The notes under the pieces are model-generated. The model was not told where the DNA came from, did no database searches, and saw only the letters and a program-made list of their open reading frames with translations. The position numbers were made by a program, and so were the translations under genes. Of a DNA stretch of 10,758 nucleotides, positions 1 through 9,079 are shown in pieces. Origin of the DNA: Anaerolineales bacterium (lineage in GTDB: Bacteria > Chloroflexota > Anaerolineae > Anaerolineales > Villigracilaceae); contig JAICRQ010000072.1 of assembly GCA_025966435.1 (NCBI GenBank), positions 1 through 10,758 of the forward strand, given 5' to 3'. Numbering within the stretch: position 1 is the first letter of the stretch; each line of letters begins with the position of its first letter.

Positions 1-567
1 GAACAGAATAGTCCAGAGCGACCCGAGGATAGCCGTGCGTACGCCAGCCGTCAGGGGTTCACTGGTCTGAGGTCGGGAAACAAAGTCTGAGGTCAGCCAG
101 GAGACAAACTCTAATTCTGCATCCGGATGTTCCTGCGCAACCGTTGCGCGGATTTCATCCGCCTGCGTGATGGAGGGCCATAAATTCCATACGCCGACAA
201 TTTCGGGTCGGATGATTCTTTCCAGAACCAGTTGATACACTTCTTCGCGAGGCCGTCTGGCGAATGGTTTCTCGTTATCCAATTTGTTATAGGCGCCGCG
301 CGAGAGTGTGGATTGAAGTAGAGTCACCAGTTGTTCTTGACTCTGCTCTGTAAGAGGGGTGCCGTCCACGGCAAGTGTGTCCGGGTCTACTCTGGCTTCA
401 TAAGCGATATACCCAAACGCACCGTTGATGATATTAAGCATGAGCGCGAACAGCGCAACGATGCCTATTACAGTAGACACTTGAAAGAGTACATGCCAGA
501 TCACGCCTTTACGGTTGCGCGCATCTAGATTATCGGTAAAACCCTGAACGACTGCTTTTTCCTTCAT
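1..567 (-). CDS. pstA: Phosphate ABC transporter permease PstA, 5' part, cut by the left window edge
   Basis: This is the second membrane subunit of the high-affinity phosphate importer PstSCAB, expected to pair with PstC in the cytoplasmic membrane. The frame is open from the ATG at 567-565 to the window edge, giving 189 residues. The ATG overlaps the pstC stop as ATGA, so the two are translationally coupled. Residues 1-22 are polar and cytoplasmic, and residues about 23-48 form one hydrophobic helix. About 120 mostly hydrophilic residues follow (rich in Arg, Glu, Asp and Gln), and then the sequence AGVRTAILGSLWTILF, which resembles the start of the permease core helices. The conserved permease EAA loop lies outside the window. 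The hydrophilic stretch between the first helix and the core is much longer than in the classic enterobacterial PstA. The identity rests on position after pstS-pstC and on the start of the permease core, so it is good but not absolute. A PstC-like second permease is the alternative. Confidence 0.8.
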   Translation of the reverse strand, partial: MKEKAVVQGFTDNLDARNRKGVIWHVLFQVSTVIGIVALFALMLNIINGAFGYIAYEARVDPDTLAVDGTPLTEQSQEQLVTLLQSTLSRGAYNKLDNEKPFARRPREEVYQLVLERIIRPEIVGVWNLWPSITQADEIRATVAQEHPDAELEFVSWLTSDFVSRPQTSEPLTAGVRTAILGSLWTILF

Positions 568-1511
568 TCGTACACCTCGCGGAAGCGGCGCACAATTGCC
601 TGGCTAATGATATTGAGTGTCAGAGTGACAAAAAACAGGAACAGCCCGAGTGCAAAGATGCTGTTGTAGTCCACCGAGTCGTAGCTCAAGTCGCCGCCTG
701 AAATTCTCACGATATGCCCGGTAATCGTCTCAGCGCCAACGAAGGGGCTGAAGGTGAAATTGGGTCCCGCACCGGCAGCCACGGCCACAATCATGGTTTC
801 GCCAATGGCACGCGAAATACCCACGATGATAGCGGCTGCAATTCCCGAAAGAGCCGCGGGAACGACGATCTGCAGCGCCACTTCCAATTTGGTCGCTCCC
901 ATGCCAAACGCTGCCTCGCGCAGAGAACGCGGGACCGCACTCAAGGAATCTTCCGTCATGGACGTGATCAGGGGCAGGATGAGGATCCCCATCACCAGTC
1001 CTGCTGAGGCCGTGTTGTAGATTTGGACCACATCCCTCCCGAAGATTTCTCGCAGAAGGGGAGTCATGAAAGTGAGAGCAAAATAGCCATAGACGATGGT
1101 GGGGATGCCTGCCAGCACCTCCAGGATTGGCTTGAGAGTATTACGAACTCTGGGGCTGGCATATTCACTCAAATAAATCGCAACCGCTATCCCAAGCGGA
1201 ATGGCGATCAACATCGCGATCAGAGTTGTCATTAAGGTAGCATTGAGTAGAGGCCAAATGCCAAATTTGCCAATCTGAGGTTTCCACTCCGTGGTGGTGA
1301 ACGTGGCAAGCAGATCTACCTCAGGCATCTGGAAAAAGAGTAAAGCTTCCCTTCCTAACACGTACACAATCCCCACTGTTGTGAAGATCGAGAAAAAACC
1401 GCTGAAGGATAATAAAGCTTGGATGAAGGTTTCTCCCCATCGGGTTTTACGACGTAAATTACTCGTAGATGCTTTCTTTTCGAAAGTTTTCTCTAGTAAT
1501 AAACCGGCCAT
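564..1511 (-). CDS. pstC: Phosphate ABC transporter permease PstC
   Basis: This is a membrane subunit of the Pst phosphate importer. The 315-residue protein has the usual length for PstC. A cytoplasmic N-terminus of about 28 residues leads to a first helix (about 30-52) and a short outer loop (about 60-85). The binding-protein-dependent permease core follows, with helices near 88-115, 128-155, 168-185, 215-235 and 283-305. The signature cytoplasmic EAA loop, which contacts the ATPase PstB, starts at residue 199 (EAAFGMGATKLEVALQIV). The segment SRAIGETM near 233-240 is typical of PstC/PstA. The start ATG is preceded by AAGGAAGG about 7 bases upstream, a strong ribosome site. The gene lies 110 bases after pstS with a hairpin in the gap, and its stop overlaps the pstA start by 4 bases. 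Expression is presumably driven from the box upstream of pstS. Confidence 0.96.
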   Translation of the reverse strand: MAGLLLEKTFEKKASTSNLRRKTRWGETFIQALLSFSGFFSIFTTVGIVYVLGREALLFFQMPEVDLLATFTTTEWKPQIGKFGIWPLLNATLMTTLIAMLIAIPLGIAVAIYLSEYASPRVRNTLKPILEVLAGIPTIVYGYFALTFMTPLLREIFGRDVVQIYNTASAGLVMGILILPLITSMTEDSLSAVPRSLREAAFGMGATKLEVALQIVVPAALSGIAAAIIVGISRAIGETMIVAVAAGAGPNFTFSPFVGAETITGHIVRISGGDLSYDSVDYNSIFALGLFLFFVTLTLNIISQAIVRRFREVYE

Positions 1512-1621: not shown

Positions 1622-2686
1622 TCACTCGACCACTGCAGCACTCCAGGCATCTTTTGCTTCCTGAAGTTTGGCGTCGCTGACGGGGAAGTAACCGACGTCG
1701 GCGATCTCATTGTTGACGTTATTGAGGAAGAACCAGAGGAAGGAAGCGACCTGAGGTTTCTCCCGCAGGATGGTGGCATCCGAGTAGAGAAAGAGTGGGC
1801 GAGAGAGAGGATAGTCGCCGCTCTCAGCCGTCTCGGCAGTCGGTTCGACATCGTTAATAGAGAGCGCTTTTAAAGCACCCTGGTTTTCCTGGTAGTAGGC
1901 AAAGCCGAAGTATCCGATGGCATAGGGGCTGCCTTCGACACCCTGAACAAGGACATTGTCATCTTCAGAGAGCTGCAGGTTGGCAGCGTTCTGGAGAGCG
2001 GCTGAGCCAGCTTCGGCATCATCGCCGTTAGCGGGGGTCATGACGACTTCCACGAAGTAGTCAAAGGTGCCGGAGTCGGTGCCGGGGCTAAAGCGCAGGA
2101 TAGGCTCGTTCGGCCACTCAGGACGGACGTCCGACCAGTTGGTGGCGGTGGAGTAGATCGCAGCCAGCTCTTCGATGGTCACGTCTGTGACGAAGTCATT
2201 CTCGCTGCTGACGACGACTGCCAGCGCATCAATGCCGACCTGGAACTCGATGGGGGTGCGTCCAATCGCCGTGCAGGATTCGATTTCCGTATCTCGGATA
2301 GCGCGGGAGGCGTTGGCGATGTCAGTCTCGCCGTTGACGCAGAAGCGCTCAATGCCAGCACCGGAACCGATCGAGTCGATAGTGAGGTTGCCACTAAAGC
2401 CTTCTTCTTCGAAGCGCTGCTTCATCCGTTCAGCTAGAGGGAAGACTGTGGATGAACCGGCCGCAATAATGTCGCCAGTCACTGCGTCAGGTGCATACAT
2501 AGCCACTGGCTCTTCAGCAGGTGCTTCCGTAAGGGCCTCGGTAGGCTCGGGAGCCGTGGTGGGTGCTTCGGTCTGCGGAGGAGCCTCCGCGGATTCAGGT
2601 GCCTGTGTGGTGGAAGGTGCACACGCCGCGAGTACGAAGCTGGTTATGATGAGGGCGAACATAAGCGTACGAACAATTTTGGTCAT
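1622..2686 (-). CDS. pstS: Phosphate-binding lipoprotein PstS
   Basis: This is the extracytoplasmic phosphate receptor that delivers phosphate to the PstCA permease. The 354 residues begin with a lipoprotein signal: basic residues, a hydrophobic stretch 7-20, and the lipobox LAAC with Cys22 as the lipidated residue. Residues about 23-60 are a flexible linker rich in Thr, Pro, Glu and Ala, of a kind common on cell-surface receptors of Chloroflexota. The binding fold follows. AAGSSTVFPLAERM (from about residue 75) is the first phosphate loop, SIGSGAGIERF (about 105-115) lies in the usual second position, and SPGTDSGT (200-207) supplies further backbone and hydroxyl contacts. The start ATG has AGGAG 7 bases upstream. 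A block of 11-bp repeats precedes the gene (2730-2773). A hairpin and 110 bases separate it from pstC. Confidence 0.96.
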   Translation of the reverse strand: MTKIVRTLMFALIITSFVLAACAPSTTQAPESAEAPPQTEAPTTAPEPTEALTEAPAEEPVAMYAPDAVTGDIIAAGSSTVFPLAERMKQRFEEEGFSGNLTIDSIGSGAGIERFCVNGETDIANASRAIRDTEIESCTAIGRTPIEFQVGIDALAVVVSSENDFVTDVTIEELAAIYSTATNWSDVRPEWPNEPILRFSPGTDSGTFDYFVEVVMTPANGDDAEAGSAALQNAANLQLSEDDNVLVQGVEGSPYAIGYFGFAYYQENQGALKALSINDVEPTAETAESGDYPLSRPLFLYSDATILREKPQVASFLWFFLNNVNNEIADVGYFPVSDAKLQEAKDAWSAAVVE

Positions 2687-2719: not shown

Positions 2720-2773
2720 ATCTTATCAAGCCGGTTTTAAGAACAAGAGAAGAACAAGTTAACGTCTTGTTAA
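2720..2773 (-). promoter_or_regulatory. Putative Pho box and -10 element of pstS
   Basis: On the minus strand, hexamers in an 11-bp register read TTAACA (unit 2763-2773), TTAACT (2752-2762), TTCTCT (2741-2751) and TTAAAA (2730-2740). A possible -10, TAAGAT, lies at 2725-2720, 15 bases after the third unit. TATAAA further down (about 2712-2707) is an alternative. Direct repeats with 11-bp spacing are the known layout of PhoB/PhoP-family operators. The first two units match those before phoB at 19 of 22 positions. They also contain a short dyad, AACAAG and CTTGTT, so a palindromic operator cannot be excluded. Confidence 0.72.
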
Positions 2774-2867
2774 GAAAAAACTGAGTAGTCAAAACCCAGC
2801 TTTTCAACTTTGCCTTTTTGAATTCGGCGAAAACGAGCTGATTGCACTACCAAATGCTCTTTTATTA

Positions 2868-2891
2868 GAAGGTGAGCAATTGTTCGCCTTC
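2868..2891. repeat. Imperfect inverted repeat in the pstS/STAS spacer
   Basis: GAAGGTGAGC (2868-2877) can pair with GTTCGCCTTC (2882-2891) around an AATT loop. As plus-strand RNA all ten pairs form, two of them G-U. As minus-strand RNA two pairs become A-C mismatches. The rest of 2774-2932 is AT-rich, with no credible ORF and no other structure that I see. The function is unknown. Confidence 0.4.
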
Positions 2892-2932
2892 CATCTCATC
2901 AGGAAGACACGTAAGTAAGACCGATATGAAAT

Positions 2933-2968
2933 AAAAAGACACCTCGTGCCTGAGAGAGGTGTCTTTTT
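2933..2968. terminator. Bidirectional intrinsic terminator after the arsC/STAS unit
   Basis: AAAAAGACACCTC (2933-2945) and GAGGTGTCTTTTT (2956-2968) form a perfect 13-bp stem with a 10-base loop. On the minus strand the stem ends in five T, 23 bases past the STAS stop codon. The A/T ends are symmetric, so it could also stop plus-strand transcripts. Its position insulates pstS from the unit upstream. Confidence 0.9.
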
Positions 2969-2991
2969 GATTTCCGAACGACAAGATATAG

Positions 2992-3240
2992 TTACGCCAG
3001 CAACATCACCTCTGCTGATTCCAATCCATCATAGATGAGGATAATCATAGCAACGTCAGTAATCTCTAATCTATTTCTTATTTCTGGTTTTGTACGCAGA
3101 AGTGCCATGCGCCCACCGCGACTAAATACGGATTTTGCGTTTAGGATCAATAATCGGATTCCCATCGATGCGAGAAATTCAACGTCTGAAAGATCTACGA
3201 GCACTTTCTCCGGTACAGTATCCATAAAATCGAGATTCAA
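2992..3240 (-). CDS. STAS-domain protein (anti-sigma-factor antagonist type), N-terminally short
   Basis: The 82 residues, counted from a TTG start, match the second half of a STAS domain, as in SpoIIAA/RsbV. KVLVDLSDVEFLASMGIR contains the strand and turn that carry the phosphorylatable serine of active antagonists (Ser in ASMG), and GGRMALLRTKPEIRNRL and the C-terminal helix follow. Family members are usually about 100-110 residues. Here the first strands, including the common GRLD region, are missing, roughly 25-35 residues. No ribosome site stands before the TTG at 3240 or the ATG at 3225. The frame is the same as that of arsC, whose TAA stop lies 12 bases upstream. It may be a functional mini-STAS coupled to arsC, or a decaying remnant. 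The domain call is good, but whether it is an intact gene is uncertain. Confidence 0.6.
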   Translation of the reverse strand: MNLDFMDTVPEKVLVDLSDVEFLASMGIRLLILNAKSVFSRGGRMALLRTKPEIRNRLEITDVAMIILIYDGLESAEVMLLA

Positions 3241-3252
3241 TTGTGATATTTG

Positions 3253-3681
3253 TTATCGAACGGGAACAATAACCCATTCCTTGACCTTTTTCTCTATTTG
3301 ATCGCGCACTTCTCGGAATTTTGCGAGTTTTTCGGCCTCTGTTCCTTCAAACCTGGCCGGGTCTTCAAATGACCAATGTAGTCGGATATTGACTCCAGGC
3401 CAAATGGTGGGACAGTTCTTATCAGCGTCATCGCAAACCGTGACTAGATACTGGAAAAGCATCTTTCCAAGATAGGTTTCTATACCTTTTGAAGTCTGTC
3501 TTGAGATGTCGACCCCCACTTCATGCATTACCTGGGCCGTCAATGGATTTACGCCTTTTGGCTCTAATCCCGCGCTGTGAGCTTCAAGAGTGTTGCCAGC
3601 ATATTTGCGGAGGAACGCCTCCGCCATTTGACTGCGTGCCGAATTACCCGTGCAAAGAAATAAAACTCGTTGTTTGCTCAT
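3253..3681 (-). CDS. arsC: Arsenate reductase, thioredoxin-coupled ArsC (low-molecular-weight phosphatase fold)
   Basis: The predicted reaction is reduction of arsenate to arsenite with electrons from thioredoxin, in the cytoplasm. The 142-residue protein opens with MSKQRVLFLCTGNSARSQMA, the P-loop CX5R of this fold, with nucleophile Cys10 and Arg16. The other two cysteines of the redox relay are present as Cys83 and Cys90 in VTVCDDADKNCP. This agrees in spacing with the Cys10/82/89 triad of staphylococcal ArsC and argues against a plain tyrosine phosphatase. The W-F-DPA segment near 103-109 and the charged C-terminal helix also fit. The start ATG has AGGAC 5 bases upstream. No arsR or arsenite pump gene is visible. 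Instead the gene has a Pho-like box upstream and sits among phosphate genes, suggesting a role against arsenate taken up during phosphate starvation. Confidence 0.92.
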   Translation of the reverse strand: MSKQRVLFLCTGNSARSQMAEAFLRKYAGNTLEAHSAGLEPKGVNPLTAQVMHEVGVDISRQTSKGIETYLGKMLFQYLVTVCDDADKNCPTIWPGVNIRLHWSFEDPARFEGTEAEKLAKFREVRDQIEKKVKEWVIVPVR

Positions 3682-3709
3682 ATGTGTCCTGCATAGAAAA
3701 GTTGAACAT

Positions 3710-3763
3710 ATTATCCTGCTTTACGATTAACAAATGTTTAACAAACTGTAATACTCAAGTTAA
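3710..3763 (-). promoter_or_regulatory. Putative Pho box and -10 element of arsC
   Basis: Minus-strand units in an 11-bp register carry TTAACT (3753-3763), ATTACA (3742-3752), TTAAAC (3731-3741) and TTAATC (3720-3730). A good -10, GATAAT (3715-3710), follows the third unit by 15 bases, and no -35 is evident, as expected of an activator-dependent promoter. The repeats resemble those before pstS, phoB and the PHP gene, but with more divergence. Confidence 0.62.
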
Positions 3764-3823
3764 ATTTCTGAGTTCTGAATCGCTATCCTTAATAAATTAG
3801 CGTTTCTTACTTAATCAAGCAAC

Positions 3824-3848
3824 GCCCGCTCTTCCATAAAAAGCGGGC
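3824..3848. terminator. GC-rich hairpin after the PHP/small-ORF unit
   Basis: GCCCGCT (3824-3830) and AGCGGGC (3842-3848) form a 7-bp stem with an 11-base loop, 49 bases past the stop of the small ORF. The minus-strand sequence after it, GTTGCTTGATT, is only moderately T-rich, so termination may be weak. It lies just upstream of the arsC control region. Confidence 0.5.
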
Positions 3849-3897
3849 AACTTCTCCATAGAGATTTCCGAAGGAAAAGAGGAATATGTTATTTTAC

Positions 3898-3990
3898 TTA
3901 GTTCCTAACTAAGAGTCTGAGGCGCTTTTGGCGCGTATCAATTGCGAAAACCACGATCAGGCCTACTAATATGAATGCAAGAACGACCAT
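3898..3990 (-). CDS. Candidate 30-residue membrane protein downstream of the PHP gene
   Basis: I do not recognise this family. The ORF starts with ATG 8 bases after the PHP stop codon, which suggests co-transcription. Residues 2-17 are almost entirely hydrophobic (MVVLAFILVGLIVVFAID), enough for one membrane helix. They are followed by Ile-Asp-Thr-Arg and a very basic tail (RQKRLRLLVRN). The positive-inside rule predicts an outside N-terminus. No clear ribosome site precedes it. The sequence pattern, helix then Ile-Asp then Arg/Lys/Gln, is shared with the small ORF after phoR (4854-4970). The short length means chance cannot be excluded. The shared pattern and the operon position are the arguments for it. 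Confidence 0.42.
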   Translation of the reverse strand: MVVLAFILVGLIVVFAIDTRQKRLRLLVRN

Positions 3991-3998
3991 TTTTGTTT

Positions 3999-4691
3999 CT
4001 ATGTAATTCTGCTTTTTCTAACGAAATTTACCGCCCAGTTGCCGAGAATTTGTGCCGAGTTCATTGGCTCTCCCTGGCGGACATCAGTTGCACCAATCCA
4101 AAGCGCATCGAGCAGGTGCGCCGCGGTGTTGCCAAGAAACTCTGTGGTGCCCAAGCCGATTGCCTGCAAAATATGAGCATCACTATTGCCAACCTGGGCA
4201 ATGCCGGGGCATTCCGCCCAAAGCTTTTGCGCGTGAAGATTACTTTCACGGTCGAGAACCGTCGCGTTATATGTTTCGATTCCGATCAGAATACGTCCAG
4301 CAACCGGATGGTCCAGCGCTCGCAGGATAGCGGGAGCACTTAAGCTTCTCATGCCTGTTCCCCTCGCCATAGGATGCGGCGCTATGCAAATTCCGCCGGC
4401 CTCGCCGACGTCTAGTATAGTTTCGATCAACCATCGCCCTGGCTTGATTTTTTGTGTGACGAACAGAGCCAGTAGGTCGCCCTCTGCAGTTGTGATTTCA
4501 ATACCGGGGATCACTTCGATCCCGAATTCAGGTGCCATTTCAAATGCCTTTAAGGCTCCTATGATTTGGTCATGATCGGTGATAGCAATCACGTCAAGAC
4601 CAATTTGTTTGGCGCGCGCCAGAACATCAGGAACAGACGCTGTGCCGTCGTAGCTATAGACTGTATGTATGTGCAGATCAGCAAGTCCCAT
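3999..4691 (-). CDS. PHP-family metal-dependent phosphoesterase
   Basis: The 230-residue protein is a stand-alone PHP (polymerase and histidinol phosphatase) domain, a TIM-like barrel that hydrolyses phosphoesters with bound metal ions. The ligand motifs are in order: DLHIHT with His7 and His9, AITDHD with Asp39 and His40, PGIE with Glu65, APHP with His106, and NSDAH with Asp171 and His173. Length and motifs fit the YciV/TrpH-like group, some of which act on nucleoside bisphosphates or short RNA ends. The substrate here cannot be read from sequence. The ATG has AGGAG 4 bases upstream. A Pho-like box precedes the gene, so a role in releasing phosphate from nucleotides during starvation is plausible but inferred. 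A 30-residue ORF follows after 8 bases. A histidinol phosphatase role is less likely because no histidine gene is nearby. Confidence 0.9.
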   Translation of the reverse strand: MGLADLHIHTVYSYDGTASVPDVLARAKQIGLDVIAITDHDQIIGALKAFEMAPEFGIEVIPGIEITTAEGDLLALFVTQKIKPGRWLIETILDVGEAGGICIAPHPMARGTGMRSLSAPAILRALDHPVAGRILIGIETYNATVLDRESNLHAQKLWAECPGIAQVGNSDAHILQAIGLGTTEFLGNTAAHLLDALWIGATDVRQGEPMNSAQILGNWAVNFVRKSRIT

Positions 4692-4703
4692 AATTCTCCT
4701 TTT

Positions 4704-4768
4704 TTTATACTAATAGTGTAACAAGAGGGAGTTAATGGCAAATCAAATTTGGTTTAAGGCTAGGTTAA
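4704..4768 (-). promoter_or_regulatory. Putative Pho box and -10 element of the PHP gene
   Basis: Minus-strand units in an 11-bp register read TTAACC (4758-4768), TTAAAC (4747-4757), TTGATT (4736-4746) and TTAACT (4725-4735). A -10 candidate, TATAAA (4709-4704), begins exactly 15 bases after the fourth unit, and the ribosome site AGGAG follows closely, implying a very short leader. Three of the four hexamers begin TTAA. Confidence 0.68.
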
Positions 4769-4792
4769 CATAGGATTGAAACTTAAAATGCA

Positions 4793-4822
4793 CAAGAGCC
4801 TGGGAGGAGGTCCAGGCTCTTG
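4793..4822. terminator. Strong hairpin after the phoBR/small-ORF unit
   Basis: CAAGAGCCTGG (4793-4803) and CCAGGCTCTTG (4812-4822) are exact inverted repeats, giving an 11-bp stem with an 8-base loop, 31 bases past the small-ORF stop. On the minus strand it is followed by TGCATTTTAAGTTTC, with T-rich stretches at a slight distance. It separates phoBR transcription from the PHP promoter. Confidence 0.68.
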
Positions 4823-4853
4823 CGAGGAGGAGAGAGAAATGTTTACTTCGTAC

Positions 4854-4970
4854 TTAGGGGCGCTTTGTGACCTTTACCTGCTGGCACAGGAAGGCACTCT
4901 GCTTACGTCCCGCATCGATAAAGATGATCATTAGCAATGCAGACACCATGACGAGCAGAAACATTTCCAT
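4854..4970 (-). CDS. Candidate 38-residue membrane protein downstream of phoR
   Basis: I do not recognise this family. The ORF begins MEMFLLVMVSALLMIIFID, so residues 3-18 can form one membrane helix. Ala-Gly-Arg-Lys-Gln and a polar, basic tail with one Cys and ending KRP follow. The helix, Ile-Asp, then Arg and Lys/Gln pattern matches the 30-residue ORF after the PHP gene. It lies 139 bases after phoR and before a strong hairpin, so it fills the last position of that unit. There is no Shine-Dalgarno sequence. TATCCT at 4982-4977, with the ATG six bases later, could be the -10 of a leaderless message. A single TTAACT (in 5059-5069) lies further upstream. It may be non-coding, and the start could be the second ATG two codons in. 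Confidence 0.4.
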   Translation of the reverse strand: MEMFLLVMVSALLMIIFIDAGRKQSAFLCQQVKVTKRP

Positions 4971-5109
4971 GCCCGTAGGATAGCACAGAGTCCCTGATTC
5001 GCGCCTTGCAGCGACTTTGCCGATACAAAACAATTCTGAAAACTGCCTCGTGTAACTTTTTTAAGTTAATTTGAAAGTTGTATGATCCTGCCTACTTGGG
5101 TTATGCAGA

Positions 5110-6330
5110 TTACGTTTCGCTGGGAATTGTGAAATAGAACGTACTTCCCTGTCCTTCGGTGCTTTCCGCCCAGATCTTTCCGCTATGCGCTTCGACAATA
5201 TGTTTGGCAATGGATAATCCCAGGCCTGTCCCCCTGCCTGTTCGGGATTTATCGACCCGATAAAACCGCTCAAAGATGCGTGAGACTTCCTCAGCGGGGA
5301 TTCCTGTACCTGTATCTCGCACCGCGAATCGCACTGCGCCGGGAATTGATTCGGCGCAAAGAACCGCTTCTCCTCCGGGGCGTGTGAACTTGACCGCGTT
5401 ATGGATGAGGTTGATCAGAACCTGTTCCAGCCTCTGTGGGTCCACCTGTACTCTGGGCAGATCCTCTGCATATTCGACGCGTAGCGCGATGTGTGCACGC
5501 TCTGCCTGGACCTGCATCCGCCGGGCGGCGGAGTAAAGCAGATCGGCTGCGGCGACAGACGCACGGTCCAGGGAGAATTGCCCTGATTCAATCTTAGAGA
5601 GTTCCAGCAGTTCGTTTGCCATTTGGGTCAGCGCGTCCACTTCGATCTGGATTTGCTCCACAAACCGTCGCGCTGCCGGGGGATCATCTAATGCTCCCTC
5701 TTGAAGAGTTTCGGCTAATGCTTTCAATGAGGCAAGTGGCGTACGAAGCTCATGGGAGAGGTTACTGACGAAATCTCTGCGCACCGTTTCAAGACGGCGG
5801 ATGCGGGTTAAGTCCTGCGCCAGTAAGAGGCTCCCGCTTGTGTGTTGATCGGGGATGACGACTAAGTGCAAATACTGGTGGCGTGTAGGCACCTCCACAG
5901 ACTCGCTCTGCATCTGCCGCGTTTGCTGGCAGCGCCGCCAGGCTTCTACAAGCTGATGGTTGCGCACCACTTCCGCGATGCTGTGGTGGAGTGGATTCCC
6001 AAATTGAAAGAGCCTGCCCGCGGCAGGGTTGGCAAACTGGATCATGCCGGTGGCATCGGCGATTAGCACGCCGTCTGTGATCTGGTCGAGGACCGTCGCG
6101 AGCCGCAGGCGCTCCGCTTCCAGAGTGGATTGTTGTGCGTTAAACGTCCCAATTAGCGAAGCAATTCCACTGGATAAAATTTCGAGCTCTCTGATATTTG
6201 TGTTGGTCTCTGTTTTACGGACATGACTGGCATATTCATCAATATCACGGCGCAACTTGTAATATCGCCACGCATACCACGCGCCAATCAGAACGACGAT
6301 AATAATGACCACCCAGGGTGATGAATTCAT
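5110..6330 (-). CDS. phoR: PhoR-like sensor histidine kinase
   Basis: This is the membrane histidine kinase that pairs with the adjacent response regulator and probably senses phosphate status through the Pst system. The 406 residues contain one membrane helix (about 5-22), no sizeable outer sensor domain, a short linker, and a PAS domain (about 72-178). The HisKA dimerisation domain carries the phospho-accepting His193 in SNLSHELRTP. The ATPase domain has Asn311 in LINLIHNAVKF (N box), DTGTGIP from Asp339 (G1), FERFYRVDKSR (F box) and GRGTGLGLS (366-374, G2). The absence of a periplasmic domain fits PhoR, which is usually controlled through PstSCAB and PhoU rather than by direct ligand binding. 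The start follows the phoB stop by 16 bases, with AAGGATAAAGG just before the ATG, so the pair is an operon. Confidence 0.92.
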   Translation of the reverse strand: MNSSPWVVIIIVVLIGAWYAWRYYKLRRDIDEYASHVRKTETNTNIRELEILSSGIASLIGTFNAQQSTLEAERLRLATVLDQITDGVLIADATGMIQFANPAAGRLFQFGNPLHHSIAEVVRNHQLVEAWRRCQQTRQMQSESVEVPTRHQYLHLVVIPDQHTSGSLLLAQDLTRIRRLETVRRDFVSNLSHELRTPLASLKALAETLQEGALDDPPAARRFVEQIQIEVDALTQMANELLELSKIESGQFSLDRASVAAADLLYSAARRMQVQAERAHIALRVEYAEDLPRVQVDPQRLEQVLINLIHNAVKFTRPGGEAVLCAESIPGAVRFAVRDTGTGIPAEEVSRIFERFYRVDKSRTGRGTGLGLSIAKHIVEAHSGKIWAESTEGQGSTFYFTIPSET

Positions 6331-6346
6331 CCTTTATCCTTCATTT

Positions 6347-7063
6347 CTATCCTTCGAATCGATATCCTCCACCTCTCACAGTCACAATCCGCTTTGGCTC
6401 GCTGGCGTCTGTCTCGATCTTCTGTCGCAGCCAGCGGACGTGGACATCTACGGTGCGGCTGTCGCCGATAAAGTCCCAGCCCCACACACGCTCAAGGATG
6501 AATTCGCGCGAGAGCATCTGTCCCTTATGTTGCGCGAAGAAGACGAGCAATTCATACTCTTGTGGCTTCAATGCCAGCGGCTCGCCATCGAGAGTAACTT
6601 CGCGGCGCGTTAGGTTGACAACCAGATTTTTGAAGCTGAGTTTTTCCTGCGGCTTTTGAGAACCATCCACACTCGATTTATCGAGTTCTTCCCGTAACAA
6701 GCGTGAGCGCCGCAGCTGAGCTTTGACGCGCGCCCTCAACTCGCGCATGGAAAACGGTTTGGTCAGGTAATCATCTGCCCCCACTTCCAGGCCCACGACC
6801 CGGTCAATTTCATCGTCACGCGCGGTCAGCATGAGAATTGGCGTGATCATTTCCTTGCGCAAAATGCGGCAGACCTCAAAGCCGTCCATTTCAGGGAGCA
6901 TCAGGTCGAGGACGATCAGGTCCGGCTGGAGCCGGCGCGCAGACTCGAGCGCGGCGCGTCCATCGCCGACGGCTTCGACGATAAAGCCGTCCCTTTTTAG
7001 ATTGTAGGAAAGGGTATCCCGCAGGGCGGGTTCGTCTTCAACAATGAGGATCGACTCAGGCAT
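6347..7063 (-). CDS. phoB: PhoB/PhoP-like response regulator (OmpR family)
   Basis: This is the transcription factor activated by phosphorylation from the downstream kinase. The 238 residues comprise a receiver domain (3-118) with acidic Glu9/Asp10, phospho-acceptor Asp53 in VLDLMLP, Thr80, and Lys102 in TKPF. A linker rich in Ser, Lys and Gln follows, and then a winged-helix DNA-binding domain (about 140-238) with the usual [24 protein letters not shown] and TVRGGGYRF segments. I chose the ATG at 7063 ([12 protein letters not shown]). The longer frame from 7102 adds 13 residues not typical of the family and would begin upstream of the best -10 (7081-7076). With that -10, the leader would be only a few bases. 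A two-unit repeat box upstream suggests autoregulation. Confidence 0.93.
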
Positions 7064-7075
7064 ACTCGTTAAGAG

Positions 7076-7118
7076 ACTATACCATAATCCACTTTTACAC
7101 AAGTTAAGGTCTTGTTAA
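7076..7118 (-). promoter_or_regulatory. Putative Pho box and -10 element of phoB
   Basis: Minus-strand units TTAACA (7108-7118) and TTAACT (7097-7107) are 11 bp apart and match the first two pstS units at 19 of 22 positions. TATAGT (7081-7076) lies 15 bases after the second unit. The probable transcription start would then be only a few bases from the ATG at 7063. This supports self-activation of phoBR. The divergent cyclase gene begins about 160 bases to the right. The space between also has an 8-bp inverted repeat (7139-7158) of unknown meaning. Confidence 0.72.
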
Positions 7119-7279
7119 TGGAATTTCCAAAGATGCTCTGGCGCCGTTTCCGGCACCAATGACCGTAGGTAACCTCCGCCGAGGACGGCAGAGTAAGCTA
7201 TAAGTAGATCGCAATGGAATTTTCATGAACTTCGCTGTAAAATCCAATGTACCCTCCTCATCTATGCGTAAACAATAAT

Positions 7280-9079
7280 ATGACAAGGGAATTCTATTTC
7301 GACTGGCACTGGGACCTGGAATCTTCGCCGCAAGCGATCTGGCCGCTCGCCTCGGATACGAATCGCTTTAACCGCGACACCGGTCAACCCGAGATCGAGC
7401 TGCTGGATAACGTGAAAGGTGTGAAGCATGCGCGAATGAAGCTTCCCATCATCCGAGTGGAATGGGAGGAGGAGCCCTTCGAATGGACGTACCCCTATTC
7501 CTTCGGCATTCTTAGAACATACAGCAAAGGTCCGATTGACGAGATGCGTGTGCAGGCGAACTTCGATCCCCGTACGAATGTCGGTACGCACGTGCGGTAT
7601 CAAACGTGGATGAAGACGAGCAATCTCCTTGCGCAGCTTGCCATCCCCTTTGCCATTGGCGCGATCGCGAAAAGCAGATTTGAGAGAGTCTTCCGCATCT
7701 ACGACCGGCTGGCGAACAAGCGCGGGTCGGTAATCGAGATTTCCCGTCCACGTGGGTTGAGCACGGATGGGCGCGCTCGCTTCAAATCTCCAAGCGAAAC
7801 GATTATTCGTCAAGGCACCGATCCAGCCTTAGTAGAGCGGCTCGAGGATTTTCTAAGCCGGGCAGATGAGCTGTCTGTTCAGCGCATCCGCCCGTATGCG
7901 CTTGCCGATCGTTGGGAAGTGAACCGCCGCGCCGTCTTGGAAATGTTCCTGCGGGCGACGCGCGCCGGCATTTTGGATATGTCCTGGGATTTGCTCTGCC
8001 CATCCTGCCGCGGCACCACCGAAGGGCATACCAACCTCGGCGATGTGCGCGGTACCTCTCATTGCCAGACGTGTCAGATCGATTTCACTGTGAACTTCGA
8101 TCACAACATTGAAGTGGTCTTCCGTCCGAATGCCTCCGTGCGCCCTGTGGAATACGATGCGGCCTTTTGTGTGGGGAGTCCGCAGTTGCAGCCGCATGTG
8201 GTCCTGTCGCAAAGCGTCGCGTCGCTGCGAACGCTGCCGGTGGCAATACAGCTCGAGCCGGGGCGGTACACCTTGCGAGCTTCGAATGTGACAGGCTCTG
8301 TTTCGTTACTTGCGGATGCGGAAGGGACGTCCAACCCCGACCTGCGTGTGACATCATTTGGATGGCCCCCGGAACAGCAGCATGTTTCGCTTCAACCCAC
8401 CCTCAACCTGATCAACGCCACCGAGGCGGAGCAAACTTTTCAGCTGGAGCGCACCGCCTGGAGTGACCAGGCAGCGACGGCAGCAGATGTAACGGCACTC
8501 CAAGCCTTCCGCGATCTGTTTGCAACCGATGTCGTGAGACCTGGTGAGGAAATTTCCATTGGCTCCGTAACCTTGATTTTCACCGACTTGCGCGATTCGA
8601 CTCGTCTTTATCGCAGGATCGGAGATGCCTCTGCCTTTGGACGCGTGCGCGAGCACTTCGAGATCCTGGAGAAATCTATTGCATCGGAAGGCGGGGCTAT
8701 CGTCAAAACGATGGGAGATGCCGTTATGGCGACGTTTCGCCATCCGGTTGCTGCTTTGCGCGCCGTCTGGACTGCACAAACGGAAATTGCGGAATACGGT
8801 GAACCGATGCTCTGGCTCAAGGTCGGCCTGCACAAGGGACCCTGTATCGTTGTCAATCTCAATGATCGTTTGGACTATTTCGGTTCCACCGTCAATATTG
8901 CGGCGCGTTTACCTGCCTTCTCACAGGGCGGCGAACTGGTCTTCACAAATGAAATCCATGAGGATCCCGAAGTGAGGCAATTTCTTGCAGAGAATATGAA
9001 AGATGATGCCTTGAGCCCCTTTACAGGAAACCTGAAGGGATTCGACGAGCCGTTTACGATGTGGAAGTTGCGGGTGTAG
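7280..9079 (+). CDS. Class III adenylyl cyclase with DUF5939-type N-terminal region
   Basis: The predicted reaction is ATP to cyclic AMP in the cytoplasm. I count 599 residues from the ATG at 7280 (MTREFYFDWHWDL). An in-frame ATG at 7247 would add 11. Neither has a ribosome site. Residues about 1-180 resemble an SRPBCC/START-like ligand-binding fold (SSPQAIWPLASDTNRFNRDTG near the start). Next come a helical part and a four-Cys zinc ribbon, Cys240/Cys243 and Cys262/Cys265, and then a beta-rich part (about 285-400). The C-terminal cyclase domain (about 428-599) has metal-binding Asp436 (FTDLRDS) and Asp480 (KTMGDAV), the adenine-selecting pair Lys476 and Asp532 (DYFG), and catalytic Asn539 and Arg543 (VNIAAR). 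All key residues are intact, and Lys/Asp favours ATP over GTP. No membrane helix is evident. The gene diverges from phoB. Confidence 0.9.
   Translation: MTREFYFDWHWDLESSPQAIWPLASDTNRFNRDTGQPEIELLDNVKGVKHARMKLPIIRVEWEEEPFEWTYPYSFGILRTYSKGPIDEMRVQANFDPRTNVGTHVRYQTWMKTSNLLAQLAIPFAIGAIAKSRFERVFRIYDRLANKRGSVIEISRPRGLSTDGRARFKSPSETIIRQGTDPALVERLEDFLSRADELSVQRIRPYALADRWEVNRRAVLEMFLRATRAGILDMSWDLLCPSCRGTTEGHTNLGDVRGTSHCQTCQIDFTVNFDHNIEVVFRPNASVRPVEYDAAFCVGSPQLQPHVVLSQSVASLRTLPVAIQLEPGRYTLRASNVTGSVSLLADAEGTSNPDLRVTSFGWPPEQQHVSLQPTLNLINATEAEQTFQLERTAWSDQAATAADVTALQAFRDLFATDVVRPGEEISIGSVTLIFTDLRDSTRLYRRIGDASAFGRVREHFEILEKSIASEGGAIVKTMGDAVMATFRHPVAALRAVWTAQTEIAEYGEPMLWLKVGLHKGPCIVVNLNDRLDYFGSTVNIAARLPAFSQGGELVFTNEIHEDPEVRQFLAENMKDDALSPFTGNLKGFDEPFTMWKLRV

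Follow-up and report, generated by a model that had tools for sequence, protein, structure and literature searches.

The Pho box of Escherichia coli PhoB is built of 11-nt direct-repeat units, according to the available part of PMC4415409, and lies 10 bp upstream of the -10 element, according to the available part of PMC1906773. The latter source also gives the cyanobacterial SphR box, that of Synechocystis PCC 6803, as CTTAACCT; the former mentions similar 11-nt repeat features in Bacillus subtilis and names SenX3-RegX3 of mycobacteria among phosphate systems. For PhoP of Riemerella anatipestifer, the available part of PMC9603813 reports a motif from DNA affinity purification sequencing with the core TTTAACA. 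Here, we describe 11-bp repeat arrays with TTAAC-type cores in front of pstS, arsC, a PHP-domain gene and phoB on the minus strand of a stretch of DNA from an uncultured Anaerolineales bacterium (Chloroflexota). The stretch, referred to below as the window, is one entire contig (C351, 10,758 bases); the draft genome it comes from has 635 contigs and a total of 3.84 Mb. From their sequence, we conclude that the arrays are very probably PhoB-type Pho boxes and the predicted binding sites of the PhoB-like regulator encoded beside them.

As far as the cited sources go, period and -10 spacing in the window are the same as those of E. coli PhoB, whereas the core is CTGTCAT in E. coli and TTAAC here, and pstS, the PHP gene and arsC have four units here. 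The SphR box matches in its core, and a period of 11 bp would result if its 8 bp were followed by a 3-bp linker, the linker length being the one quoted for E. coli. Unlike the SphR box, the arrays have TTC or TTG instead of TTAAC as their third unit, and at pstS, the PHP gene and arsC they form a four-unit block at a fixed distance from the -10 element. The likeness to SenX3-RegX3 is one of regulator sequence, proteins alone having been compared: among proteins of solved structure, RegX3 (2oqr, E 3.5e-60) is nearest to the regulator in the window. PhoP of B. subtilis binds TTAACA-like hexamers at 11-bp spacing. An earlier note on this DNA had likened the hexamer to the Bacillus type; the TTAAC-type core stands, but the match found in print is the SphR box in the accessible part of its source, and the Bacillus likeness comes from general knowledge, since a Bacillus PhoP consensus was looked for in the literature, including the accessible parts of PMC4415409 and PMC9603813, and not found. 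In the accessible part of PMC9603813, neither an 11-bp repeat array nor a phosphate gene set was met for R. anatipestifer PhoP.

All four boxes lie on the minus strand exactly where the earlier note had placed them, and its count of 19 agreements in 22 positions between the pstS and phoB boxes is correct. Its description as 11-bp TTAAC-type repeats needs amending. Like PhoB/PhoP-type Pho boxes, the boxes are tandem direct repeats in a strict 11-bp register, but those of pstS, the PHP gene and arsC are four-unit arrays, not pairs, and not every unit reads TTAAC. The units are, in order, TTAACAAGACG, TTAACTTGTTC, TTCTCTTGTTC and TTAAAACCGGC at pstS; TTAACCTAGCC, TTAAACCAAAT, TTGATTTGCCA and TTAACTCCCTC at the PHP gene; and TTAACTTGAGT, ATTACAGTTTG, TTAAACATTTG and TTAATCGTAAA at arsC. 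Unit 3 starts with TTC at pstS and TTG at the PHP gene, and unit 2 with ATTAC at arsC. The phoB operator has only TTAACAAGACC and TTAACTTGTGT. A gap of 10 bp separates the last core from the downstream -10 element at pstS, the PHP gene and arsC, as in PhoB/PhoP-type boxes. At phoB, the gap is longer by one unit in the window, and it shifts by 1-2 bp among relatives.

Conservation of the boxes in related genomes

We compared the window with 61 genomes of the family (counts over these relatives include the window unless said otherwise). A PstS match is present in 56 of the 61, and DNA was taken for 30 loci from 30 genomes. Every one of the 30 pstS genes is preceded by a four-unit array, with best scores of 15.0-17.6; a score of at least 15 was reached by only 3 of 4000 mononucleotide-shuffled 400-bp windows. 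The arrays begin 85-154 bp ahead of the match start, the value of 154 belonging to a match that starts only at residue 41. No box precedes second-type PstS-like genes, of which 15 were taken from genomes lacking the regulator and five from genomes that have it: all 20 score at most 13.0, one of them with only 214 bp of upstream sequence. The box is therefore conserved in relatives upstream of pst and, as described below, of other phosphate genes, and the enrichment that the earlier note had asked for is strong, in pstS promoters as well as against paralogues and reversed controls.

The 30 aligned pstS promoters give the logo TTAAC-MARACG, TTAAM-CNATCC, TTCCATTGNCC, TTAAA-AGCCGN, N, TGATAANAT, with one row (L029), whose best four-unit run was off by one unit, moved by hand. 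No row departs from the leading TT in units 1-3, from TTAA in unit 2 or from G as the end of unit 1; in the extended -10 element, the G, the A within TA and the final T are equally invariant. The -10 offset is fixed, the last TTAAM ending 10 bp before the -10 hexamer. The operator logo that the earlier note had anticipated for a poorly studied phylum has been obtained for this group and tested against controls.

The same alignment bears on the alternative that a regulator unrelated to PhoB recognizes a palindrome, the AACAAG/CTTGTT dyad, in the pstS and phoB boxes. The pstS box of the window has the complete dyad and the phoB box nearly all of it; the dyad belongs to an inverted repeat (2735-2748/2765-2778) that is 79% complementary, and CTTGTT stands at the same place in strict sites of three other genomes (G052, G004 and G042) and in G066. 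However, CTTGTT occurs in one of the 30 aligned pstS promoters, that of the window itself, and in 4 of 46 strict sites, and the six dyad pairs are complementary in 3-17 of the 30 rows, whereas the TTAA cores and the 11-bp register are found in nearly all. We therefore reject the dyad as a general rule, although CTTGTT recurs in four other sites, and consider a palindrome-binding regulator very improbable.

Could the arrays be AT-rich spacer or promoter DNA with an accidental 11-bp periodicity? TTAA is common in AT-rich spacers, and the short motif TTAACN6TTAAC gives no genome-wide signal: exact matches number 5 in the source genome against 10 for a reversed control, and 36 against 136 in 18 genomes of the genus, where the motif is thus rarer than its control. 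Within the window, the picture is different. Allowing at most one mismatch, there are six matches at four places, two of which match on either strand, whereas 200 dinucleotide shuffles averaged 0.23 matches and never reached six; three of the five exact matches in the genome lie in the window (binomial P 2e-7). The short motif is unsuitable by itself, and discrimination comes only with the four-unit or the promoter pattern. In the source genome, the strict four-unit pattern (TTAAM-N6-TTAAM-N6-TT-N9-TTAAM) is confined to two places, before pstS and the PHP gene of the window, against none for the reversed control; across the family it is found 46 times in 38 of the 61 genomes, against three. 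A looser setting (unit 1 fixed as TTAAC, at most two mismatches) gives four matches in the source genome, which is not above the five of its control; what stands out is that all four (pstS and the PHP gene, the PHP box read a second time from the plus strand, and the arsC box, likewise from that strand) lie in the window contig. The full promoter pattern with at most three mismatches occurs 98 times in 48 of the 61 genomes, against 10 for the reversed control. Shuffles and reversed controls, together with the specific absence of the box from paralogues and the fixed -10 offset, refute an accidental periodicity, which we regard as hardly credible.

With the four rows from its own genus excluded, a matrix was built from the 26 pstS promoters that belong to other genera. 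It ranks the pstS site first (60.1) and the PHP site second (27.8) among 21,410 window positions, with phoB fifth (-8.1) and arsC eighth (-12.7). Ranks 4, 6 and 7 go to positions overlapping those of arsC or PHP, and rank 3 to an unrelated site at 6692. The phoB rank of 5 applies to an alignment from 7129; aligned from 7118, the site ranks 48.

Conservation at the other two four-unit boxes follows orthology. DNA was available for 30 of 35 matches to the PHP protein. The box is present before 17 of 17 orthologues with at least 51% identity (scores 13.3-17.6, 16 of them reaching 15) and before none of 13 paralogues with at most 48% identity (scores at most 11.3). For arsC, 30 of 32 matches had usable DNA; one (G032:C1, 51%) was left out and the second copy in the source genome was read separately. 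The box precedes arsC at all 10 loci with at least 63% identity (scores 14.0-17.3, nine reaching 15) and at none of 20 with at most 53% (scores at most 12.3). The hexamer at the arsC -10 offset is GATAAT in two further loci (L320, L321), TAAGAT in L319 and L327, and TAAAAT in L322. Many of the box-less arsC genes seem, from frames judged by eye, to lie behind pstB or phoU, so that they may still be co-transcribed with pst.

Among named genomes, we kept 80 of 584 pstS loci; some of their records are identical to family genomes, and five loci are short of upstream sequence. The best matches among the 80 are labelled Chloroflexi or Anaerolineales/Anaerolineae; further down, spirochaete, Acidimicrobiia and cyanobacterial labels, among others, appear as well. 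Within 350 bp, 31 of 75 upstream regions beat all 200 of their dinucleotide shuffles and 44 do not. Hence, the contiguous four-unit array is common outside the family, though far from universal; a 550-bp scan gave further, distant candidates. Among 10 spirochaete-labelled loci, five (L155, L162, L166, L174 and L183) have TTAAC- or CTAAC-type 11-bp arrays that beat 200 shuffles, L168 and L182 are near-significant (1 and 3 of 200 shuffles), and L145, L156 and L175 are not.

The regulator and the proposed mechanism

The regulator has the receiver and winged-helix C-terminal domains of the OmpR/PhoB family (PF00072 and PF00486). The strict box is found in 36 of 44 genomes that have it (E 1e-65 or better) and in 2 of 17 that do not (Fisher P 6.6e-7, which takes the genomes as independent and leaves their relatedness uncorrected). 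In the two exceptions, the box lies before a PHP gene (G030) and before a gene unmatched to any protein of the window (G058). For phoB itself, we examined 30 loci out of 47 matches: 20 reach a two-unit score of at least 9, as do 0.65% of shuffled 400-bp windows, and 14 reach the full score of 10, as do 0.025%.

Several observations weigh against reading the boxes as sites of this regulator, besides the uncorrected relatedness and the genus-wide scarcity of the short motif given above. The regulator falls below the curated cut-off of each of the best 25 of 102 NCBIfam models, including PhoB TIGR02154 (222.2 against 296.2 bits), so we call it PhoB-like only. Its own gene lacks a box at 10 of 30 loci; seven of these have an apparent PstB end just upstream, as judged by eye, and three (L053, L056 and L058) do not. 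A second arsC in the source genome (G000:C510:4905-5318), 77% identical, has no box (score 10), which brings the count for close arsC relatives to 10 of 11. The arsC site of the window scores poorly with the pstS matrix, though it ranks eighth, and its strict TTAACN6TTAAC pair reads on the plus strand (3727-3742), opposite to the gene, TTAA being self-complementary. The -10 spacing (offset 48-53, as at pstS) and the relatives favour an orientation towards arsC. Finally, the source genome is only 80% complete.

The earlier note had called the protein PhoB-like: the OmpR family and the co-occurrence of box and regulator bear this out, but the PhoB cut-off is not reached. Because of the NCBIfam scores, a PhoB-like identity would rest on neighbourhood and on conservation of the boxes. 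The kinase likewise falls short of PhoR TIGR02966 (283.2 against 334.2) and PnpS NF046044 (324.3 against 400). A different OmpR-family regulator of the WalR/RpaB/MtrA kind, rather than the adjacent one, might then be the main binder. Related regulators use direct repeats of similar period, and the models for YycF (254.6 bits against a cut-off of 340, the best score among the best 25 of 102), MtrA, CseB and RpaB all outscore PhoB for this protein, each below its cut-off. However, the presence of the box tracks this particular regulator across genomes, the box recurs before the regulator's own gene, and the genes repeatedly found behind it are pst, PHP, surE, phoU and the like. We consider binding chiefly by another regulator improbable.

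We propose that, under phosphate shortage, the kinase would phosphorylate the adjacent PhoB-like regulator, which would bind head-to-tail to two to four 11-bp direct repeats with the cores TTAAM, TTAAM, TTC/TTG and TTAAM. Given the 10-bp gap between the last core and the -10 element, the bound regulator would take the place of a -35 box at pstS, the PHP gene and arsC, the geometry known from E. coli PhoB, recruiting RNA polymerase by a contact at the last unit; the predicted effect is activation. The shorter, two-unit box of phoB would serve autoregulation. The intergenic region with this box is shared with a divergent gene encoding DUF5939 and nucleotide-cyclase domains (7247-9079).

Gene order in the window and genes behind the promoter in the family

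Read along the minus strand, the window holds phoB, phoR, a small open reading frame (ORF), the PHP gene, another small ORF, arsC, a STAS-domain ORF, pstS, pstC and probably pstA (Table 1). The putative pstA fragment has no Pfam match. Inverted repeats able to form hairpins are found at 2933-2968, 3824-3848 and 4793-4822, each just upstream of the pstS, arsC or PHP box and past the preceding minus-strand gene. Because they sit between that gene and the box, they suggest terminators, and hence separate transcription units for pstS, arsC and the PHP gene. An Rfam scan of the window at the gathering threshold gave no match.

Table 1. Coordinates of genes, operators and promoter elements in the window.
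Feature	Position	Strand	Basis or remark
pstS, phosphate-binding lipoprotein	1622..2686	minus	PF12849; TIGR02136 above cut-off
pstC, phosphate permease	564..1511	minus	TIGR02138 above cut-off
Probable pstA, truncated by contig end	1..567	minus	identity inferred from place after pstC
arsC, thioredoxin-type arsenate reductase / low-molecular-weight phosphatase family	3253..3681	minus	PF01451; TIGR02691
STAS-domain ORF, immediately behind arsC	2992..3240	minus	profile positions 40-106 of 106 only
PHP-domain metal-dependent phosphoesterase	3999..4691	minus	PF02811; AlphaFold2 model matches 2anu, 7ug9, 2yb1
phoB-like OmpR-family response regulator	6347..7063	minus	PF00072 and PF00486; NCBIfam; closest solved relative
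phoR-like PAS/HisKA/HATPase histidine kinase, immediately behind phoB	5110..6330	minus	Pfam, NCBIfam
pstS operator, four 11-bp units from 2773, 2762, 2751, 2740	2730..2773	minus	repeat register, relatives, matrix
Extended -10 of pstS promoter, TGATAAGAT	2720..2728	minus	TG-N-TANNNT, fixed spacing
PHP-gene operator, four 11-bp units from 4768, 4757, 4746, 4735	4725..4768	minus	register, relatives, matrix
Extended -10 of PHP promoter, TGTTACACT	4715..4723	minus	
arsC operator, four 11-bp units from 3763, 3752, 3741, 3730	3720..3763	minus	register, relatives, matrix
-10 hexamer of arsC promoter, GATAAT	3710..3715	minus	offset 48-53, as at pstS
phoB operator, two 11-bp units, in register with pstS units 2 and 3	7097..7118	minus	
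-10 hexamer of phoB promoter, TATAGT	7076..7081	minus	
Small ORF, 30 residues, one membrane span then D..QKR, behind PHP gene	3898..3990	minus	profile E 4.8e-10, itself a row of the profile
Small ORF, 38 residues, same family, between phoR and PHP gene	4854..4970	minus	profile E 2.1e-13, itself a row of the profile

By domain and by the fold of its model, the PHP protein is a metal-dependent phosphoesterase. The model, built from four sequences with a mean predicted local distance difference test score of 80.9, matches 2anu (E 9e-10), the PHP domain of RNase AM (7ug9, E 3.4e-9) and 2yb1 (E 6.5e-6), a complex with AMP and phosphate; further matches are PHP domains of DNA polymerases. Its HxH, DH, HP and DAH residues, which we take to be the usual PHP metal-binding motifs, are invariant in the four sequences. 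In one relative (G017), a Ppx/GppA exopolyphosphatase-like ORF, recognized by eye (L249, 3-1388, minus strand), lies divergent from the PHP gene behind a box with two mismatches, and a similar divergent box is found in another (G067:C6:24534-24571, plus strand).

ArsC satisfies the low-molecular-weight phosphatase model PF01451 and scores 147 bits against a cut-off of 174.3 for the thioredoxin-type arsenate reductase model TIGR02691. Arsenate enters cells through Pst. Phosphate control of arsC and the PHP phosphoesterase, as predicted here, would fit this route of entry and phosphate scavenging. The STAS ORF behind arsC lacks the N-terminal third of its domain; one relative (G008) has a full-length STAS gene, 56% identical, with a weak Pho promoter (three mismatches).

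The 98 promoter matches in the family precede genes of pstS types (45), PHP genes (13), small-peptide genes (9), genes for a protein that we call SLNQT (8, seven by script and one, in G055, by eye), surE (4), a GAF-domain type (4, grouped on a common N-terminal motif, one member having been scanned), PhoU (2), and DUF47/PhoU_div, a histidine phosphatase, arsC and STAS (one each); nine precede other genes. One of the 45 (G057:C24:10755, three mismatches) is 303 bp away from pstS, and the interval contains a weak micropeptide match. Thus, 89 of the 98 matches precede recurring or phosphate-related gene classes, and the genes behind the 51 with at most one mismatch are without exception pstS, PHP, small-peptide, surE or SLNQT genes. 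The idea of a local Pho regulon holds insofar as genes of the block carry the box, but the set reaches beyond the block: in relatives, surE, phoU and small-peptide genes have it too, as does the gene for the SLNQT protein. This protein of unassigned family has about 220-340 residues (some copies are incomplete) and a GS(L/I)NQT motif near its start, and is found behind a Pho promoter in eight family genomes (L310 in G008, L286, L293, L299 and others). The G008 protein has no Pfam match.

The two small ORFs of the window belong to a family of peptides of 30-40 residues, with one membrane span, read off a hydrophobic run, and a D..QKR-type motif whose D and K are invariant across 19 rows. With an E threshold of 0.05, the profile made from these rows, which come from 15 genomes, finds the family in 42 of 61 genomes, and with 1e-3 in 35 of these, the 15 being found by construction. 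With distances measured by hand, 45 of 51 matches lie at most 10 kb from a match to pstS (either type), PHP or phoB, and six do not. A micropeptide ORF lies directly behind 9 of the 98 promoter matches. The two micropeptides scanned against Pfam gave no match. In the window, no TTAAC box precedes the 38-residue ORF (best score 11.6), and we do not claim Pho control of it for that reason. This ORF apparently starts a few bases past a -10-like TGCTATCCT; because the start is so near, its mRNA may be leaderless.

What might these peptides do? Tentatively, the sequence data raise the possibility, which we rate as well short of even, that the Pho response of this Chloroflexota lineage includes micropeptides, which may be membrane partners or brakes of PstSCAB or the kinase and so a new component of phosphate signalling. 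In size, they are comparable to other small membrane regulators.

The kind of switch described here, a Pho box, is already known; its exact layout and some of its targets look new for the phylum. Among the open-licence matches listed for Chloroflexi, Chloroflexota or Anaerolineae with PhoB or Pho, there is no apparent description of such an operator. New are the group-specific logo, the PHP, arsC, surE and PhoU targets, and the family of 30-40-residue membrane peptides with two copies in the window. For a probable Anaerolineales family represented here almost wholly by metagenome-assembled genomes, the analysis provides a control-tested operator logo for phosphate starvation, with which Pho regulons can be recognized in the genome sequences themselves. 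Through it, arsC and a PHP phosphoesterase come under predicted phosphate control, and the membrane micropeptides and SLNQT proteins emerge as two unexplained families with a link to Pho.

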